Source: a virus | Reading direction: 5' to 3' (one strand) | Virus record (IMG/VR): IMGVR_UViG_3300032294_001472 | Location: 1-48,900 of that record | DNA length: 48,900 nucleotides | Part shown: piece by piece, positions 11,290-45,735 of the stretch | How positions within the stretch are numbered: position 1 is the first letter of the stretch | Layout of the letters: each line of letters starts with the position of its first letter | Position numbers and translations under genes: made by a program | The notes under the pieces: model-generated | The model's database searches: none | What the model was told of the DNA's origin: nothing | What the model saw: only the letters and a program-made list of their open reading frames with translations

Positions 11290-12231
11290 TTATGGTGTTA
11301 TGTCCCCGATTGCCCGCCAAGTATTTGCCTCCACATAAATGAAGCGAACAACTGCGTGACGCGCTCTGATTTTGGTCGCGTTATCTGCTGCGTTTACAGT
11401 TGCCCCTGCTCCAGCAACAAAACTAACCTGTCCTGTTCCTGCTTGTGAAACGTCAAACCAGTCCCCTACTTGCAATCCCGCAAGAGATGTTGCTGAAGGA
11501 AGCGTTACAGTACGATTAGCGCTTGACGTGATGCGTCTTTCAGAGTACAACTCATTTAGGTTAGTCAACGTATAGTTAGCATCTATGCTAACAATTGTCA
11601 TCCGGTATGGTGCTTTGCCATTAAGTTCTGATTGTAATCCTGTTACGTCAGAAATACTATGCGAATGAGAGACGTTTGCTTTTGCAGCCAATGCCGCAGC
11701 AAGTGCCGCATTATCATTCGGGCTTCCTGCGAGCTCGCTGAAGGAGCTTGCCCCTCCACCACCGCCACCCGTAGTTTGGATTACCCATTGGTTGTCGGAG
11801 CTATCCCAAAACGCCTTTTGCGGTCCTTGTCCTGAACCAGCATCAATAATTGCCTCCCAGCCTGGCTGTCCGTTTGGATATGCATTTTGTAGTGCGCTCA
11901 AACTAACAAACGTACCAACGTAAGTTATACTTAACGAGGCAAGCTTGGTTTTCTCTGCGTTTGTAAAATTGGCTTGAGACAATCCTTTTCCAACTTCAAC
12001 ATTAACTTTATTTGACAACTCTAAAATGGTGTCGGAAGGCAGGTTTGTAACCTTGTTCTTGTCTGTGTTGTTATAGTCGTTAGTTGACAATCCCTTGCCT
12101 ACCTCAGCATCTTGCTTTGAATTTACAGCAGCTTTTATCTCGTTTGCATCGTCTGCCGTAAAGTTTCTCCGCGGATCGCTCTCTGGTAGATTAGGGTTTT
12201 CTGATTTGTTTAGGTAAGTTATGTTTGCCAT
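11290..12231 (-). CDS. Tail fibre-like structural protein
   Basis: A 313-residue protein with fibre-type features: an N-terminal region with two copies of the motif 'VGKGLS..(N/A)(Y/F)(T/N)N..K' (about residues 43-60 and 77-95), a Gly-rich linker (TTGGGGGGASSFSEL) and the HSHSISDVTGLQSELNGKAPY module, which recurs in the collagen-like fibre (44063-45397). The C-terminal domain is beta-rich. Such 'DVTGLQ..L..KA' modules are common in trimeric phage fibres. Unusually the gene lies between neck and sheath genes instead of after gpI. Confidence 0.72.
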   Translation of the reverse strand: MANITYLNKSENPNLPESDPRRNFTADDANEIKAAVNSKQDAEVGKGLSTNDYNNTDKNKVTNLPSDTILELSNKVNVEVGKGLSQANFTNAEKTKLASLSITYVGTFVSLSALQNAYPNGQPGWEAIIDAGSGQGPQKAFWDSSDNQWVIQTTGGGGGGASSFSELAGSPNDNAALAAALAAKANVSHSHSISDVTGLQSELNGKAPYRMTIVSIDANYTLTNLNELYSERRITSSANRTVTLPSATSLAGLQVGDWFDVSQAGTGQVSFVAGAGATVNAADNATKIRARHAVVRFIYVEANTWRAIGDITP

Positions 12232-34399: not shown

Positions 34400-37189
34400 C
34401 TATTTTTCGGTCGTTCCCAAAATGCTTTTTAACGGCAGAGCTACTGCCCTGGTAATTGCGCCACTTGCAAAACGTGCCGTTGTCTTTTCCTTCGCTCCTT
34501 CGTGGCGTAGCAATATGCGGTGATGATTCTTGTTCCATGCCGTATCTCTGAGCATTTTGCGTATCTGTTCGGAGCTGTGCGAAACAACCAGGTGCCCATC
34601 CATTGGAGGGGCGAACTGCTCATTCTCCACTTTTAAGCCAAGTCGTTTCAGCGTGTCGTTGGCCACAACAGGTCCAACAACGGCATCGTGTGACAACCCG
34701 GCTGCGTTCTGCACCAGCTCACCCACGTTGCGCTCAACCGTTCCGTGCTCACCGTTTACCCTTACCATTTGGTCAAGGATGTAAGACACCAGCGACATTT
34801 CGTCCTTGGTCCCGTCCAGTGCACGTTCTTCGCTCCAATCCTTTTCAGACACCCACTTTATTGCTGCCTCGTATGAAACCTCTCTATCGGAAAACAACGA
34901 GTATGCACCCGCCAACAACGCTCCGAGCTGATCACCCTGGCGTTGCTCACCGAGTACCGATGCAGCAGCGTTGGCAAACGTCTGAGCGTTCTTCAATATC
35001 ACCGGAAGCAGCGTAACAGTTCTTGCCTGCAACCGCTGTACAAATTCGTCAGTAAAAAGCTCGTTGTATAGCTCTTGCAGTTTCTGCCAGCGCTCTTTTT
35101 TCAACTTCTCATTGTTTATTGCCCGCATGGACAGAATGGTAATACGGCTGCGGTCTGATTGTTGTGCAGCCTGCACCCCGATAGATGCGAACGCGAAACA
35201 CGAGCGTATGCTGTACGACTTGGCTGCACCCGTGGCAGAGCCTTTAATGAGCAAGCCACCGTCATCCGTTGAGGCCGAACGCATCAAGGTAAGGATGTTT
35301 TGAATCCGCTCTGCGCTGCGCTTGTCGTCTATGTCCGCCTCATCGAAAACAACAGGCAAGGCATCGTGGTTGAGCGTTTGGCGCAAGCCTGCTTCTGATG
35401 TTTCGCCCTGGACTGCAAGCGCGGTTTCTCCCAACAGTCTGCGGACGATGTTTTTGAACACCCACGATTTTCCGGTGCCTGCCGACCCTGTAAGCCAAAT
35501 GTGTGGACGCCATCTAAGCGCACCGCAAAATGGAGCCACAACACACCACCCTGCTAAGAGGTATGTGTTCACGTCACGCTCCCAATTGAGCATGCTCAGC
35601 ACCTCAATCAGTCGGTTGGCTTCTTTCGTTTTCAGAGGGTTGCTCGTTTCAACACCTAAGTCGTCAGACGTTTCATAGACGAACCTGGACTCGAGCGACC
35701 CGAGCTTTTGATTTTGTCCGTCAACAATCAGTTCGCTTCCGGTGTGAATGATTACGCGTTCCTTATCCGTCCATGCACCGCGCCCGCGGATGTAGCGCTC
35801 ATTGAACGGACCAGTTTTGATGCTGGTGCGTATGAGAAATTCCTGAGCGCCTTCGATGCTGATTCCTGCCCTTCCTGATGGGAAATGTGTTTCCCAAAAA
35901 GACAAAGGGGCAAGGGATATGAGCGCAGATTTGCTTATTGCAGATGCCGTGAATGATAGTGTTGCCTTAGCCTCGTGCTGGAAAAAATGGTGGCGTAGTG
36001 AGCCTTCGGCCTTATCCCAACCGAGAAACTTAAAGTGTGCGGAGAAGCCAAGCGGATCATAGCCCTTATGTGGCTCAGTGAAGCCTGGCTCACCTTCGTG
36101 GTCGTATGTCGGTTCAGGATTGATTGGTGGCGGTTCGGGATTGCTTGGTGGTGGTTCGGGCTTCAACTCTTTGAACTGCCAACGTCCGTCCATTGGACCG
36201 AATTCGTAGACCGATTCACGGCCTATCTGAATCATGCGCCACATGTTGCCGTGCGTTGGTGGCACATCGTCCACTAATCGGCTGAGCACGAACTCGCGGA
36301 GCTGCCCAGGTTGCCATTCCGTGTCCGCACAGTCCCAACCCTTCGGCAATGTAGTGTCGAGCGGAACGAGCTTGCTGAGGCTCAGCATGTGATTGGTGAG
36401 GTGGCGAACATGCAGCATGGCGCTGATGCCTTGCACATCGTTATCCGGCCACATAAGCACCTTGCGCCCCCACAGTGGAGCCCAATCCACATGCGCGATA
36501 GCCATCGAACCACCCGGCCATGTAGTTACAACCACACGCGAAGGGTCGAGCTGTGCCTGTGCTGCGTCTGCGGTTTTCTCGCCTTCAACGAGCAGTACGG
36601 TTGCCGATGGGTTGGCTTCGAGTAGGTGCAGGTTGTACAGTGGACGAGGGTTGTCGAACCCTTGCCAACGCCATTCCGAGCGGTTGCCGTCCGTAGCCCA
36701 TACATAGGGCAGAACTTCCTTGCCGTCAGGCGTATCGAACCTGCACACGAAACCATACAGCCTGCCGTCCGCAAGCCGGTACGTCCATGCCTTGGACGGT
36801 AGCCCGTGTCGGTAGTGGCTAACCTCTCCTACCAATTCATCGGGTGGTATTTGCTGCTGCCACGGACGAGCCTGTTTCGGCTTGGCTTGGCGTTTCGGTT
36901 TGTCGCCTGTCTGGTCGCTCACTGCGTGTGCGTATATCTCCTTGCAAGATTCCTGAAATGTTTTTCCGGCATAGTCCATTACAAACGCAATAGCATCACC
37001 GCTCCAACCGCAGGCAAAACACTTCGCCAGGTTTTTAGAAGGCGTGACTGTTAGTGATGCATGGTGGTCGTCATGAAAAGGGCATGTGGCTTTTAAGTGT
37101 GCGCCCTCTTTTTTTAAATGTATATACCGCCCGATAACATCTGCTATCGGGTTATTGTCTATAATACGTTGAGTGTCGATTCGCTGCAT
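34400..37189 (-). CDS. DnaG-type primase fused to helicase (DUF927-like)
   Basis: A 929-residue replication protein. CHC2 zinc finger: C36, H39, C57, C60. Toprim-like domain: E202 in LLVEGEK and D249/D251 in WPDNDVQG. A Pro-rich linker (about 344-368) joins the DUF927-like helicase half, which has Walker A GSAGTGKS (568-575) and Walker B VVFDEAD (613-619), and later NNEKLKKERWQKLQELY helices. It combines primer synthesis and unwinding at the fork, a common arrangement in phages and satellites. A terminator follows; the upstream leader is an A/C-rich run rather than a Shine-Dalgarno site. Confidence 0.92.
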   Translation of the reverse strand: MQRIDTQRIIDNNPIADVIGRYIHLKKEGAHLKATCPFHDDHHASLTVTPSKNLAKCFACGWSGDAIAFVMDYAGKTFQESCKEIYAHAVSDQTGDKPKRQAKPKQARPWQQQIPPDELVGEVSHYRHGLPSKAWTYRLADGRLYGFVCRFDTPDGKEVLPYVWATDGNRSEWRWQGFDNPRPLYNLHLLEANPSATVLLVEGEKTADAAQAQLDPSRVVVTTWPGGSMAIAHVDWAPLWGRKVLMWPDNDVQGISAMLHVRHLTNHMLSLSKLVPLDTTLPKGWDCADTEWQPGQLREFVLSRLVDDVPPTHGNMWRMIQIGRESVYEFGPMDGRWQFKELKPEPPPSNPEPPPINPEPTYDHEGEPGFTEPHKGYDPLGFSAHFKFLGWDKAEGSLRHHFFQHEAKATLSFTASAISKSALISLAPLSFWETHFPSGRAGISIEGAQEFLIRTSIKTGPFNERYIRGRGAWTDKERVIIHTGSELIVDGQNQKLGSLESRFVYETSDDLGVETSNPLKTKEANRLIEVLSMLNWERDVNTYLLAGWCVVAPFCGALRWRPHIWLTGSAGTGKSWVFKNIVRRLLGETALAVQGETSEAGLRQTLNHDALPVVFDEADIDDKRSAERIQNILTLMRSASTDDGGLLIKGSATGAAKSYSIRSCFAFASIGVQAAQQSDRSRITILSMRAINNEKLKKERWQKLQELYNELFTDEFVQRLQARTVTLLPVILKNAQTFANAAASVLGEQRQGDQLGALLAGAYSLFSDREVSYEAAIKWVSEKDWSEERALDGTKDEMSLVSYILDQMVRVNGEHGTVERNVGELVQNAAGLSHDAVVGPVVANDTLKRLGLKVENEQFAPPMDGHLVVSHSSEQIRKMLRDTAWNKNHHRILLRHEGAKEKTTARFASGAITRAVALPLKSILGTTEK

Positions 37190-42741: not shown

Positions 42742-42999
42742 TTAGTGTGTTACTGTTTGGATTTCATAACTCACTCTGTTGTTCTTTCCTTCTTGAACAT
42801 CCCAAGATAATGACGATTTATTCGGACCAACAACAAAATATCGGTACCCGTTGTCATAAAATCGATAAACCTTGCATCCATCATGTTCAAACAACAAGTT
42901 AACCTCATACTCTGTATTGTTCGTTTGCTGTTTGCTCAAAGGTTCTTTGCAGGATGCAATCAGCGCAATCAAGGCAATAGCAGTTATTATTCTTTTCAT
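42742..42999 (-). CDS. Small lipoprotein (DUF4884-like)
   Basis: An 85-residue protein, lipoprotein signal MKRIITAIALIALIASCKEP with lipobox IASC (Cys17). The mature part EYEVNLLFEHDGCKVYRFYDNGYRYFVV resembles the DUF4884 family, widespread in Bacteroidota and their phages. It overlaps the upstream gene by 4 nt. Membrane-associated; its role in infection is unknown. Confidence 0.78.
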   Translation of the reverse strand: MKRIITAIALIALIASCKEPLSKQQTNNTEYEVNLLFEHDGCKVYRFYDNGYRYFVVGPNKSSLSWDVQEGKNNRVSYEIQTVTH

Positions 43000-43280
43000 G
43001 TGTGTGTTGTGCTGATACCGTCAGCTCGGGTTAGTTCTTTGAGTGCCTCAGTCAACGGGGCAATGCTTTCCAGCGACACAAACCTGTTCAGCGCAAAGTG
43101 CGTATACGGGAACAAGTCATCGTTATTCAGTTCCTCGAGCTTGCAGCCATACGAACCGCCTTGCATGTTCATGCGCTCTACCAACGTAATGTGATAGATT
43201 TCATTCTCCTTCACCCAACGGCTTGCAGGCACTTCCGCAGGCTTATGTTTGTCATTGATACAGACTACTTCAATTCTCAT
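42996..43280 (-). CDS. Unknown 94-residue protein
   Basis: The ATG at 43280 (MRIEVVCINDKHKPAEVPASRWVKE) lies 2 nt beyond the 3' end of a tRNA-like RNA; an ATG further upstream would lie within that RNA, so is not used. A beta-rich small protein with YHITLVERMNMQGG and NNDDLFPYTHFALNRFVSL. No recognised family. The end overlaps the lipoprotein gene ATG. Confidence 0.65.
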   Translation of the reverse strand: MRIEVVCINDKHKPAEVPASRWVKENEIYHITLVERMNMQGGSYGCKLEELNNDDLFPYTHFALNRFVSLESIAPLTEALKELTRADGISTTHT

Positions 43281-43282
43281 TG

Positions 43283-43372
43283 TGGAGAGGGTGGGTATCG
43301 AACCCACACGGCTGCATATCGAAGCGAACTACTAGCGAGCTACTACATGCCTCCGTTCCAAACTAACTCCCC
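43283..43372 (-). ncRNA. tRNA-like RNA 1 (normal 3' half, abnormal 5' half)
   Basis: The 3' part is tRNA-like: T-arm GTGGG-TTCGATA-CCCAC and acceptor CCTCTCC-A pairing 6 of 7 with GGGGAGT at the 5' end, including a G3-U70-like wobble and A73, as in alanine-accepting RNAs. In place of D and anticodon arms there is GTTTGGAAC and a long broken helix (ACGG..GCAT with ATGC..CCGT) that abuts the T-arm without variable loop. Layout recalls the tRNA-like domain of tmRNA. A degraded class II tRNA is the alternative. Confidence 0.45.
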
Positions 43373-43445
43373 ATATTGCCACCGTACCGCGTGGCGCGTG
43401 CCGTCTGTCGTCATCGTCTTGATGGCTAACTCTGCCTTGACGTTG

Positions 43446-43557
43446 TGGGGATGGAAGGAGTCGAACCTTCGCGGTACTATGGTGGCTACTAACATGCTCG
43501 ACAAGGTGTATACGCCTCCGCTGATTGTTTCGCTACAGTACCACTTCCAAATTCCCC
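43446..43557 (-). ncRNA. tRNA-like RNA 2 (normal 3' half, abnormal 5' half)
   Basis: T-arm GAAGG-TTCGACT-CCTTC and acceptor CATCCCC-A, pairing 5 of 7 with GGGGAAT at the 5' end. A TTTGGAA segment replaces the D-arm, and an 8-bp helix GTGGTACT/AGTACCGC abuts the T-arm, enclosing 57 nt. It shares GGGGA, TTTGGAA, CGGAGGC and ATGT(T)AGTAGC in the same order with RNA 1. No anticodon arm could be placed. May be a tmRNA-like or decayed tRNA gene. Confidence 0.45.
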
Positions 43558-43686
43558 ATTTGCTCGGTTCCTCGCACCGCTCACGGTATAGTTTCAACCG
43601 CGTATGCACTTGCCACCGAGCAGGCCGCACGTCACTCCGTGCTTGATGAACGTTGCTTACCTTCTTGATTCTAGGCAACGGTTTGG

Positions 43687-43758
43687 TTGCGGGAGTGGGA
43701 TTCGAACCCACCGTCTTTGGCTTATGAGGCCAACGAGTAACCAATTCTCTGTCCCGCA
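43687..43758 (-). tRNA. tRNA-Met/Ile2 (anticodon CAT)
   Basis: Acceptor TGCGGGA/TCCCGCA (7 bp), short D-arm GAG..CTC with GGTT in the loop, anticodon arm TTGGC-CTCATAA-GCCAA with anticodon CAT, T-arm GTGGG-TTCGAAT-CCCAC and discriminator A. CCA is not encoded. Could be elongator Met or an Ile tRNA modified at C34; position 1 T rather than mispaired C argues against an initiator. Confidence 0.88.
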
Positions 43759-43847
43759 ATGTTGCCGTCACAGCAGGGAGTGACGGCTCATGTGCGTCCA
43801 CCGTTTTTTAAAGACTTTTCCAAGCGCACAACCTGATTATGTCTTCG

Positions 43848-43938
43848 TTCCCGAGAGCGGAATCGAACCGCTGACACTAAGCACTGCACCCTTTTTAATA
43901 GTTATGTGCCTACGCTCTGCCAACTGAGCTACTCGGGA
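43848..43938 (-). tRNA. tRNA with enlarged anticodon region (identity unassigned)
   Basis: Acceptor TCCCGAG/CTCGGGA, D-arm GCTC-AGTTGGCA-GAGC and T-arm AGCGG-TTCGATT-CCGCT are all perfect, with A73. The segment between D- and T-arms is about 18 nt longer than in a class I tRNA: the anticodon stem TAGGC/GCTTA encloses a 25-nt loop instead of 7. An intron-like insert, a class II variable arm or a decayed gene are possible. Anticodon cannot be stated. Confidence 0.65.
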
Positions 43939-43982
43939 ACCAACCCGAGTCTTACCTCGGAGATGGGATAGCGAAATAACAA

Positions 43983-44028
43983 AACCCCGAACATATACGC
44001 AAATTTTCGCACGTATATTTTTGGGGTT
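43983..44028 (-). terminator. Terminator after the collagen-like fibre gene
   Basis: AACCCC/GGGGTT (6 bp) and ATATACG/CGTATAT (7 bp) form one long interrupted hairpin; on the minus strand it is followed by TTGTTATTT. It lies 34 nt after the fibre gene stop and separates it from the tRNA cluster. Confidence 0.7.
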
Positions 44029-44062
44029 GTTTTATATGTGCCTGACTGTCAGAGAAATAAAA

Positions 44063-45397
44063 TTATCTTACTAAGTTTCTTCCTATCTCAAGGCGCAAAT
44101 AATCTAAGCGAATAATGCCTGCTGCTGCATCTGTTGTGCTTTCTCCTACGTAAACACCCGCTCCTGTTTCCCTTCCTACTGCTTTTGGCACATTAGAAGC
44201 AACACTTGATTGCCATTGCTGAACACCTGCTTCATTGAATATCGTAAACGTGGCCGCTGTTGCATCGCTGTTTAATTCGACAGTACACGTGTACCAAGTA
44301 TTGTTCGCTACTGCAAACGTTTCCGTTGTAGCGGTTTCCACATTGTTCTGCCTTGCCCTACCTGTTGCGGTTAGCGCTGTTCCATTACCTACAATATCAA
44401 TATACACACCATCCACAGGTGCCGTTGCTGATGTAGCATCTAAAAATCCTAACCTACATACCGCAGTTGCTCTTACGCCTCTCATCTGAAACACACATAC
44501 GAACTTCTCACTGCCTGATAAACGGAAAGCCAATACATCCGTCATAATTCGATAGCCACCATTAGCCGTTGTGCTATCCCTTAATTCTACGATTCCTGGA
44601 TGATTCGGCTCTGCTGCAACTTGAACAATAGTTCCACCCGATATAGCCGTTCCGGCTAATCCTTGGGCAAATGGAGTTGTCACGGCCAAAAATTCTGTTT
44701 CAATAACCGCCATTTGAAGCCTTGTGGCAACATCTGCTTTAGCATCTAATGCCGACTGAAGGCCTGTAACATCCGCTATTGCGTGTGAGTGAGCTGATGG
44801 AGGAAACGATGTTGGCTTTCCTGTAATATCAGCCCAATCAGATGAACCTGTTGGCCCTGTCGGTCCCGCAGGACCTGTTTCGCCTTGCGGACCCTGTGGA
44901 CCCGTTGGACCAACGTCTCCCTGCGGACCTGTTGGTCCTGTATCGCCTGTATCTCCCTTGTCGCCTTTCGGCCCTTGCGGACCTGTCTGTCCTTGGACTC
45001 CTTGCGGACCCTGTGGACCTTGTGGACCAACGTCTCCCTGCGGACCTGTTGGTCCTGTATCGCCTGTATCTCCCTTGTCGCCTTTCGGCCCTTGCGGACC
45101 TGTCTGTCCTTGGACTCCTTGCGGACCTGTCTGTCCTTGGACTCCTTGCGGACCCTGTGGACCTTGTGGACCAATCGGACCTTGCGGACCTCTGAGCATC
45201 TCGATTTGTTCGGGCGTAAGGTCGTTGAAATCGACCTCTCCCATCGGGCCTTGCGGACCTGTTGGACCAGGTGGACCTTGCTGACCTGGTATGTAGATAA
45301 GTGGATACGAAGTGCCATCAAACACAACAACAGGCTTGAATTCATCGCCCATTATCTCGATTGGTGTACTTGTTGTATTCAGCTCTACTACTATCAT
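44063..45397 (-). CDS. Collagen-like tail fibre protein
   Basis: A 444-residue fibre. Residues about 40-185 are Gly-X-Y collagen repeats ([19 protein letters not shown] type, units with [14 protein letters not shown]), expected to form a triple helix. An adjoining [21 protein letters not shown] module, shared with the fibre-like gene at 11290, links to a C-terminal beta-rich domain (about 220-444) that ends in LDYLRLEIG and may bind the receptor. The collagen part is encoded by a 117-bp tandem unit, suggesting length variation. Confidence 0.85.
44906..45127. repeat. 117-bp-period direct repeat in the collagen-like region
   Basis: 105 bp at 44906-45010 are repeated without change at 45023-45127, 117 bp (39 codons) apart; a third partial copy of the last 37 bp follows. 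The perfect identity at DNA level, not only protein, shows recent duplication. Confidence 0.92.
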
Positions 45398-45735
45398 AGC
45401 TTCTCAAATTTCGCTATTGTTCCAAAATATTTGTCGTTGCGTCCGCTCGGGAACGCAGCATCGTTCGTCTTAACTGTTATGGCTGCGCGAACATATCCGC
45501 TAACCATTGCCGCCACTTCTCCAACGAACACGCGAACCAATGCCCGCGTAGGTTGACCCGACACTGCAAGTATCTGTTTGAGCGGGTCGGTTTCAGTTTT
45601 CTTCAAGGTCTTAATAATCGTGTCGTTATTATACACATCAACAGTTATATCCGCAGCATTCGCGAACGTAACCGTTTTCATGTCGATAGTGAACACAATG
45701 TCTTGGCCTGTATAGTATGTCGCAAACTCGCTCAT
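45394..45735 (-). CDS. Unknown 113-residue protein in the lysis-fibre block
   Basis: The protein starts [34 protein letters not shown] with alternating strands, giving an Ig-like or fibre-base appearance (about residues 1-105). It overlaps the fibre gene by 4 nt and the holin-like gene by 4 nt. Probably a fibre-associated virion component; family not recognised. Confidence 0.68.

Follow-up and report, generated by a model that had tools for sequence, protein, structure and literature searches.

What kind of gene ends like a tRNA on both sides and yet has no D-arm and no anticodon arm between those ends? The question is raised by two genes, here called RNA1 and RNA2, on the minus strand of positions 1 to 48,900 of IMG/VR record IMGVR_UViG_3300032294_001472. 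This stretch of phage DNA was analyzed as a whole and is referred to below as the window. It is that of a 48.9-kb myovirus, with genes for the large terminase, portal, tail sheath, baseplate, primase and helicase, and its first 123 bases are identical to its last 123, which suggests, from sequence, a complete circular assembly. We put at about even (roughly 0.5) the chance that RNA1 and RNA2 encode tRNA-like RNAs that take no part in decoding, lie at the 3' end of a phage tRNA operon and are built like the T4 species 1 RNA (rnaC), i.e., an acceptor stem and T-arm, a GGA-containing stretch in place of the D-arm and an irregular stem-loop domain in place of the anticodon arm.

The last two genes of a four-gene cluster

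Read 5' to 3' on the minus strand, the cluster consists of tRNA-X, a CAU tRNA, RNA2 and RNA1, and is followed by an ORF (Table 1); RNA2 and RNA1 are thus its final two genes. ARAGORN at default settings and Rfam at its cut-off detected only tRNA-X and the CAU tRNA. In tRNA-X, the acceptor, D-arm and T-arm are normal and approximately 25 nt replace the 7-nt anticodon loop; forced to a 7-nt loop, this gene scored slightly better than its shuffles in a cloverleaf parser (34 of 300 as good). Its counterpart in a collinear relative, G002 (terminase 80% and helicase 81% identical), is a normal tRNA-Ile(TAT) at L055:3757-3833, and a tRNA-Cys occupies the place in G002 that corresponds to RNA1. Given the oversized loop of tRNA-X, a normal decoding arm is missing from three of the four genes in the cluster of this phage.

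Two further elements were observed near these tRNA genes. A long AT-rich hairpin (43978-44034), in sequence that is 78% identical in G002, separates the tail-fibre gene from the RNA cluster. It is probably a terminator, albeit one absent from the output of a simple terminator scan; the scan for sigma-70 promoters and terminators returned one promoter-like site and no terminators, which was not above shuffles. In the tRNA cluster spacer of G002, a 98-nt element between two tRNAs (L055:3655-3752) is closed by a 16-bp inverted repeat, GGTATCACAGGGCTGA.

Table 1. Coordinates of the RNA genes, their parts and the compared phage RNAs (unprefixed positions are those of the window).
Feature	Position	Strand	Basis or remark
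RNA1, 90 nt, tRNA-like, without canonical D and anticodon arms	43283-43372	minus	descriptor scan
RNA1 acceptor 5' strand GGGGAGT	43366-43372	minus	pairs with 43284-43290
RNA1 TTTGGAA block at the place of the D-arm	43356-43362	minus	sequence; cloverleaf parser
RNA1 T-arm GTGGG-TTCGATA-CCCAC	43291-43307	minus	5/5 pairs
RNA1 acceptor 3' strand CCTCTCC	43284-43290	minus	followed by A73 at 43283
RNA2, 112 nt, tRNA-like, without canonical D and anticodon arms	43446-43557	minus	descriptor scan
RNA2 acceptor 5' strand GGGGAAT	43551-43557	minus	pairs with 43447-43453
RNA2 TTTGGAA block	43545-43551	minus	sequence
RNA2 T-arm GAAGG-TTCGACT-CCTTC	43454-43470	minus	5/5 pairs
RNA2 acceptor 3' strand CATCCCC	43447-43453	minus	followed by A73 at 43446
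CAU tRNA, ordinary	43687-43758	minus	ARAGORN; Rfam 58 bits; 0/300 shuffles parse as well
tRNA-X	43848-43938	minus	Rfam 46.6 bits; no identity assigned by ARAGORN
ORF, function unassigned	42996-43280	minus	likely ATG 43280-43278; alternative GTG start 43307 listed
T4 rnaC, 139 nt	L271:1409-1547		homologues in L272-L283
CBA120 152-nt RNA	L287:13263-13414		homologues in L289-L295

To describe the tRNA-like ends, we used a descriptor composed of a 5-bp T-stem, a 7-nt loop starting TTCRA, and a following strand that pairs with an upstream 7-mer. Five such acceptor plus T-arm units were found in the window, as compared with a mean of 0.35 per window in 20 first-order Markov resamplings. Four of the five fall within 43283-43938 on the minus strand (656 bases) and are exactly tRNA-X, the CAU tRNA, RNA2 and RNA1. 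As the count is far above that of the resampled windows, the units in RNA1 and RNA2 can be taken as real. In both RNAs, five to six of seven acceptor positions and all five T-stem positions are paired. The acceptor of RNA1 has five Watson-Crick pairs, one G-U pair and one mismatch, and that of RNA2 has five Watson-Crick pairs and two mismatches adjoining the T-arm. The T-arm and the acceptor strand ending in A73, which the initial annotation had reported for both RNAs, were therefore confirmed, with the two mismatches of RNA2 to be added. Also confirmed was the G-U pair of RNA1 at the position used for alanine charging (3:70), where RNA2 has G-C, and the ordered blocks TTTGGAA, CGGAGGC and ATGT(T)AGTAGC occur in both RNAs as claimed. 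The flanks of the two genes are alike (ATGGGGA...CCACAA, with CAA after each element), and a spacer of 73 bases separates RNA2 from RNA1. Predicted folding energies were -35.1 kcal/mol (z -2.5) for RNA1 (43283-43374) and -34.6 kcal/mol (z -1.4) for RNA2 (43444-43559).

No canonical cloverleaf was found between these ends. Neither RNA was called by ARAGORN at default settings; with the threshold lowered to 50%, RNA1 was forced into a tRNA-Ser(GCT). The Rfam tRNA model (RF00005) matched RNA1 with 17.1 bits (E 2.1), below its cut-off of 29, and listed no match to RNA2 at E<=5. We also considered and rejected both as canonical class II tRNAs: an exhaustive parse of RNA1 was no better than that of its shuffles (130 of 300 as good), and RNA2, which exceeds the length permitted by the parser, gave no admissible parse. 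The same parser recognized the CAU tRNA and the two tRNAs of G002, for each of which no more than 1 of 300 shuffles did as well. By ARAGORN at default, Rfam and the parser, then, a D-arm and an anticodon arm with a 7-nt loop are missing from RNA1 and RNA2, as had been proposed.

Middle parts, relatives and alternative origins

RNA1 and RNA2 had been described as homologous. Judging from their common ends, flanks and blocks, it is plausible that they are related; the shared ends are suggestive in this respect, whereas the alignment of their middles is borderline. Dinucleotide-shuffled middles aligned as well in 103 of 2000 local and 62 of 2000 global comparisons, and random pieces of the window did so in 63 and 28 of 2000, respectively. 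Over their full length, similarity was matched in 0 of 2000 global and 14 of 2000 local comparisons; these include the acceptor and T-arm, which any tRNA shares, and are for that reason limited as evidence. The long helix abutting the T-arm was indeed predicted in both RNAs, to no greater extent than shuffled middles give: these folded at least as well in 55 of 500 (RNA1) and 139 of 500 (RNA2) cases, and matched the number of end-to-end pairs in 66 and 18 of 500, respectively. Since the middle blocks and the T-arm-adjacent helix beat chance only marginally, homology of the two RNAs is not proven.

Searches for relatives of the two RNAs gave none. Exact-pattern scans of IMG/VR, from which very near records were possibly omitted, yielded 0, 31, 0 and 0 stretches. 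We judged all 31 contigs of the second scan to be unrelated or to hold ordinary tRNA genes; a T-arm with no more than one mismatch is present in 15 of them, and most of these 15 are, by eye, tRNA-Ser-type genes. Against 269 loci, no homologue was detected by blastn (E<=0.05) or nhmmer (E<=1), and a further search produced two 20-base matches (E 0.07 and 0.10), which we took as chance. Scans of IMG/VR with the neighbour protein, helicase and terminase returned relatives of the phage or of its helicase, as did a helicase scan of GTDB genomes among the matches listed, and no RNA1 or RNA2 homologue was among them; one of the IMG/VR scans and the GTDB scan gave at least 80 loci each. In the closest relatives, the region around the cluster position contains ordinary tRNAs or no tRNA, except for an odd 68-nt unit beyond the helicase gene of G001. 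For the structure-aware comparison in related phages that the initial annotation had called for, these scans (269 loci and the IMG/VR patterns) thus supplied no homologue of RNA1 or RNA2 with which covariation could be assessed.

The chief alternative is that RNA1 and RNA2 are wrecked tRNA genes of a rapidly changing phage tRNA cluster, in which insertions, deletions and recombination replaced the D and anticodon arms and left the ends as functionless remnants. Both RNAs are orphans, their middles fold no better than shuffles, the acceptor of RNA2 has two mismatches, and the neighbouring tRNA-X looks like a damaged form of the tRNA whose G002 counterpart is normal. Moreover, phage tRNA pseudogenes or degenerate tRNAs are reported in the accessible parts of PMC1524935, PMC5852040 and PMC3184105. 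Decay does not readily account for a perfect 5-bp T-arm, a canonical loop and the same flanks being kept though the rest of the tRNA is gone, nor for the same pattern arising twice within one cluster. Because there are no known relatives and the middles fold at chance level, we nevertheless regard decay as a real possibility, at less than even odds.

A cis-acting role is improbable. Here RNA1, and perhaps RNA2, would serve as a tRNA-like 5' leader, or as a site of processing, and would fix the mRNA 5' end of the downstream ORF. By our reading of the sequence, two bases separate A73 of RNA1 from the likely ATG, and in a relative from L002 that is 62% identical the start aligns, by eye, at the same ATG. 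A Shine-Dalgarno-like 4-mer was found within 20 bases upstream of just 8 of the 65 ORFs taken as genes, so a leaderless or leader-poor start would be tolerable; scarce Shine-Dalgarno signals are also typical for phages of Bacteroidota. However, no start codon lies immediately 3' of RNA2, which is followed by the 73-base spacer, and in G002 the tRNA-Cys is approximately 25 bases (by eye) from a possible start, so the tight spacing is not conserved there.

It is more improbable still that the two RNAs are mini tmRNAs, i.e., alanine-charged RNAs with a short tag frame that ends in tandem TAG and serves ribosome rescue. Alanyl-tRNA synthetase recognizes G3:U70 with A73, and RNA1 carries both of these alanine identity elements. 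TTTGGAA resembles the unpaired D-loop stretch of tmRNA. The tandem stops that had been noted inside both RNAs are present and over-represented: three of the nine minus-strand TAGTAG copies in the window, at 43334 and 43345 in RNA1 and 43491 in RNA2, fall within these 202 bases, against 0.02-0.06 expected, in what is an after-the-fact test of one motif already flagged. tmRNAs are encoded by phages, with 402 of 18,146 genomes given in the accessible part of PMC9004378. Against a mini-tmRNA, the checks with tmRNA covariance models and ARAGORN that had been suggested, the latter run with -m, gave nothing significant in the region. The best Rfam match, and the only tmRNA-model match listed there, was to RF04321 (13.4 bits, E 3.5, cut-off 47) and rests on the T-arm and acceptor of RNA1. 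ARAGORN -m found none at default and, at 60%, made seven scattered calls on both strands of an 801-base stretch, which we took as noise. Position 3:70 of RNA2 is G-C, no pseudoknot was seen by inspection, and the stops lie, by eye, in differing frames relative to the shared blocks; the candidate tag frames were likewise read by eye. The mini-tmRNA part of the initial proposal is accordingly unsupported.

Finally, functional tRNAs with unusual introns or inserts removed by splicing can practically be dismissed: at 80%, the intron mode of ARAGORN did give a tRNA-Thr within RNA2 (22-nt intron) and a tRNA-Tyr in RNA1 (16-nt intron), but this setting calls freely, as it also calls an antisense tRNA-Arg across the CAU tRNA, the inserts are far below the size of self-splicing introns, and no splicing motif was seen by inspection.

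The idea of an attP tRNA remnant was also tried. It was weakened by the lack of any integrase or site-specific recombinase in PHROGs or Pfam scans, for which 43 of the 65 minus-strand ORFs regarded as genes and two plus-strand ORFs were used, most of them against one library; in the relative L003, an integrase-like ORF adjoins its tRNA (by eye).

tRNA-like RNAs in the clusters of other phages

In T4, the last tRNA of the operon is followed by two stable RNAs, rnaD (species 2) and then rnaC (species 1). The accessible part of PMC3014915 gives no known role for the species 1 RNA, and that of PMC9697503 describes its detection on a Northern blot. The 3' end of rnaC is a perfect T-arm, CCGGG-TTCGAAT-CCCGG, followed by CGTTTCG, which pairs with 5' CGATTCG except at two central U-U positions. 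Using rnaC as a blastn query, we found matches in 720 of 50,697 phage records, 692 of which cover at least 80% of the query. We aligned 13 loci that were picked for diversity and include Tequatrovirus, Kanagawavirus, Karamvirus, Gelderlandvirus, Winklervirus, Kagamiyamavirus and Marfavirus; rnaC lies at the end of the operon in T4 and between tRNA genes in several of the other loci. With no structure supplied, RNAalifold returned a consensus that contains the acceptor and the T-arm, the latter immediately preceded by a helix, and has both-sided changes at 21 of 39 pairs; no D-arm or anticodon arm was seen. When we counted a structure of our own naming, pairing held in 98.5% of 325 cells and both-sided changes appeared at 10 of 25 pairs, counts that are inflated by related rows in the alignment; neither value was reached by any of 500 shuffles, and versions slid along the alignment paired in 30-43%.

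This structure includes a 6-bp loop-loop helix, TTGACG:CGTCAA, which reads TTGGCG:CGCCAA in two of the 13 loci and whose outer columns (54, 59) also pair mutually in the RNAalifold consensus. For the acceptor, we counted the outer pairing minus the two central U-U positions; among the five pairs counted, one changes, from G-C to A-U in two loci. All 13 loci can form the outer pairing, which is the one chosen by RNAalifold. An alternative internal pairing with CGGAACG (T4) or CGAAACG is possible in the T4- and Karamvirus-like subset, and the analysis script chose internal pairing in most loci. rnaC has no Rfam match at cut-off, and the annotation of Karamvirus KKP_3262 gives the 3' two thirds of this RNA as a 96-nt tRNA-Phe. 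Searches of the open-access literature found no description of rnaC-like RNAs as tRNA-like; older T4 work lies outside that literature and may well have recorded that rnaC ends like a tRNA.

A second conserved RNA, of 147-152 nt, closes the tRNA clusters of Ackermannviridae (CBA120, Vi01 and Taipeivirus). In CBA120, an 86-nt and a 152-nt acceptor plus T-arm unit lie downstream of tRNA-Ser, the latter being the last RNA. A query of the two genes matched 258 phage records, 126 of them over at least 80% of its length. Of nine loci considered, eight were aligned, L296 being left out because part of its element reads N. The 7-bp acceptor and the T-arm were paired in 100% of cells, with compensatory changes, and the consensus has no visible D or anticodon arm. 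Both-sided changes occurred at eight pairs of the 32-pair structure, a number reached by 2 of 500 shuffles; a further count, of pair types, goes against the structure (14 versus a shuffled mean of 17.3, with 500 of 500 shuffles at least as high). The stretch TGTGCATG is invariant in the eight aligned loci, as is a helix, ACTTCCT/AGGAAGT, directly after the acceptor, which for this reason falls outside the covariation test. There was no Rfam match at cut-off. At E<=5, four of the loci gave three partial sub-cut-off overlaps, with snoR639 (18.7 bits), sX4 (16.6 bits) and tmRNA (10.9 bits over 13 T-arm bases). No description of this RNA was found in the open-access literature.

Like rnaC, RNA1 and RNA2 are located in a tRNA cluster, have an acceptor and T-arm and have no D or anticodon arm. 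They were not recognized by covariance models of either family. The rnaC model, which scores 173 bits on its own members, gave T-arm-only matches of 3.7 and 2.9 bits to RNA1 and RNA2 with filters off, and none listed at E<=10 with default filters. The Ackermannviridae model (169 bits on its own members) also matched the T-arms only, with 9.0 and 6.3 bits, as compared with 12.2 and 11.3 bits for the two tRNAs of the window. RNA1 and RNA2 therefore share layout and operon place with these RNAs, not family membership.

Units of this kind were also counted in six sources picked for their tRNA clusters, i.e., the window, G015, Aeh1, CBA120, XacN1 and T4. Twenty acceptor plus T-arm units were not covered by ARAGORN, against a total of 1.4 for the resampled means, and 15 of these units have a same-strand tRNA within 1 kb; as the sources were chosen and not sampled, this is no estimate of prevalence. 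Some of the missed units are ordinary or nearly ordinary tRNAs. Of the 17 found outside the window and T4 (in L284, L286, L287 and L288), four are linked to an Rfam tRNA match above cut-off, three of them by reaching or overlapping it and one via a near-identical homologue, with none for the remaining 13. In control sets, the missed units were split into those up to 1 kb from a tRNA and those beyond: there were two and 11 in 80 GTDB loci (15 tRNAs), none and four in 80 viral helicase loci (3 tRNAs), and 31 and four in 31 pattern-picked viral loci (138 tRNAs), several units of this last set being repeated across near-identical contigs and some surely being ordinary tRNAs.

Several individual loci were recorded along the way. 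In Aeh1, three consecutive tRNA-like genes of 113-119 nt (L286:11388-11506, 11526-11638 and 11656-11772) have a D-arm (by eye) and an expanded anticodon domain; one has two T-arms, and one is annotated (tRNA-Val, 122 nt). Unannotated acceptor plus T-arm units lie in the Aeh1 tRNA cluster (L286:22649-22749) and in the XacN1 clusters (L288:36856-36977, 36988-37052 and 45297-45441), two of those in XacN1 being just upstream of its tmRNA, with a GOLLD RNA nearby. An oversized anticodon region was seen in tRNA-like genes of 107 nt (G008:26414-26520, in L057/L069) and 147 nt (G015:17722-17868, in L059), and hardly any anticodon region in one of 68 nt (G001:31383-31450, in L058). On a Streptococcus vicugnae contig, a 114-nt unit missed by ARAGORN (L135:18135-18248) lies two bases from a tRNA.

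Putative role and comparison with known systems

The acceptor plus T-arm units, the place in the cluster, the absence of a cloverleaf and the conservation of the layout in two other phage lineages are established. Against the rnaC-type reading stand the orphan status of RNA1 and RNA2, the chance-level folds of their middles, the model matches confined to the T-arm, the two acceptor mismatches of RNA2 and the ordinary tRNAs that G002 has in the region. The initial suggestion of a tRNA mimic without D and anticodon arms holds as far as the build is concerned, with well-conserved counterparts among T4-like phages and in Ackermannviridae.

RNase P, the CCA enzyme and EF-Tu grip the acceptor and T-arm portion of tRNA. 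If RNA1 and RNA2 are non-decoding tRNA-like genes, the four genes of the cluster would be transcribed together, and the two RNAs would be released by the host enzymes that act on tRNA ends (RNase P, 3' processing and CCA addition) and persist as stable RNAs. They might then act via proteins that grip the tRNA acceptor or elbow, while being unable to enter decoding. If they occupied such proteins in this way, they would sequester, as a sponge or decoy, host factors that bind tRNA ends or defences that target tRNAs. We consider this putative decoy role unlikely, and the claim about layout is much firmer than this step.

More broadly, and tentatively, unrelated phages (T4-like phages, Ackermannviridae, Aeh1, XacN1 and the present myovirus) may maintain, in their tRNA clusters, a functional class of tRNA-like RNAs that do not decode, with a conserved acceptor/T-arm end and lineage-specific domains in place of the decoding half. 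RNA1 and RNA2 would be two members of this class and the T4 species 1 RNA its oldest case, and its members would act on host tRNA-end-binding factors or on tRNA-targeting immunity. If phage tRNA clusters regularly carry such RNAs, they have been overlooked by tRNA callers and counted as tRNAs by some annotators. It would then become testable whether these RNAs help in translation takeover or counter tRNA-targeting defences, and the T4 and Ackermannviridae families offer conserved, culturable systems for such tests.

Of the known systems, the tRNA-like domain of tmRNA (RF00023, RF04321) resembles RNA1 and RNA2 in having an acceptor and T-arm, a long helix and no D-arm. In RNA1 and RNA2, however, no mRNA-like domain or pseudoknots were found and no tmRNA model matched significantly, and a usual tmRNA is three to four times as long, the two RNAs being a quarter to a third of its length. 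Phage tRNAs that evade tRNA-targeting defences are likewise phage-encoded and of tRNA build; in the accessible parts of PMC10264068 and PMC11555353 they are described as tRNAs, whereas the absence of an anticodon arm should keep RNA1 and RNA2 from decoding. The Ackermannviridae RNA shares the acceptor and T-arm, the missing D and anticodon arms and the cluster-end position, and differs in its greater length and in the ACTTCCT/AGGAAGT helix. rnaC differs in its 139 nt, its covariation-supported helices and its 6-bp loop-loop contact. Its likeness to RNA1 and RNA2 extends to being a small RNA in a phage tRNA operon, with a perfect T-arm directly before the acceptor strand, a 7-position acceptor with two mismatches, a GGA-containing stretch following the acceptor, a helix immediately before the T-arm, and neither a D nor an anticodon arm.
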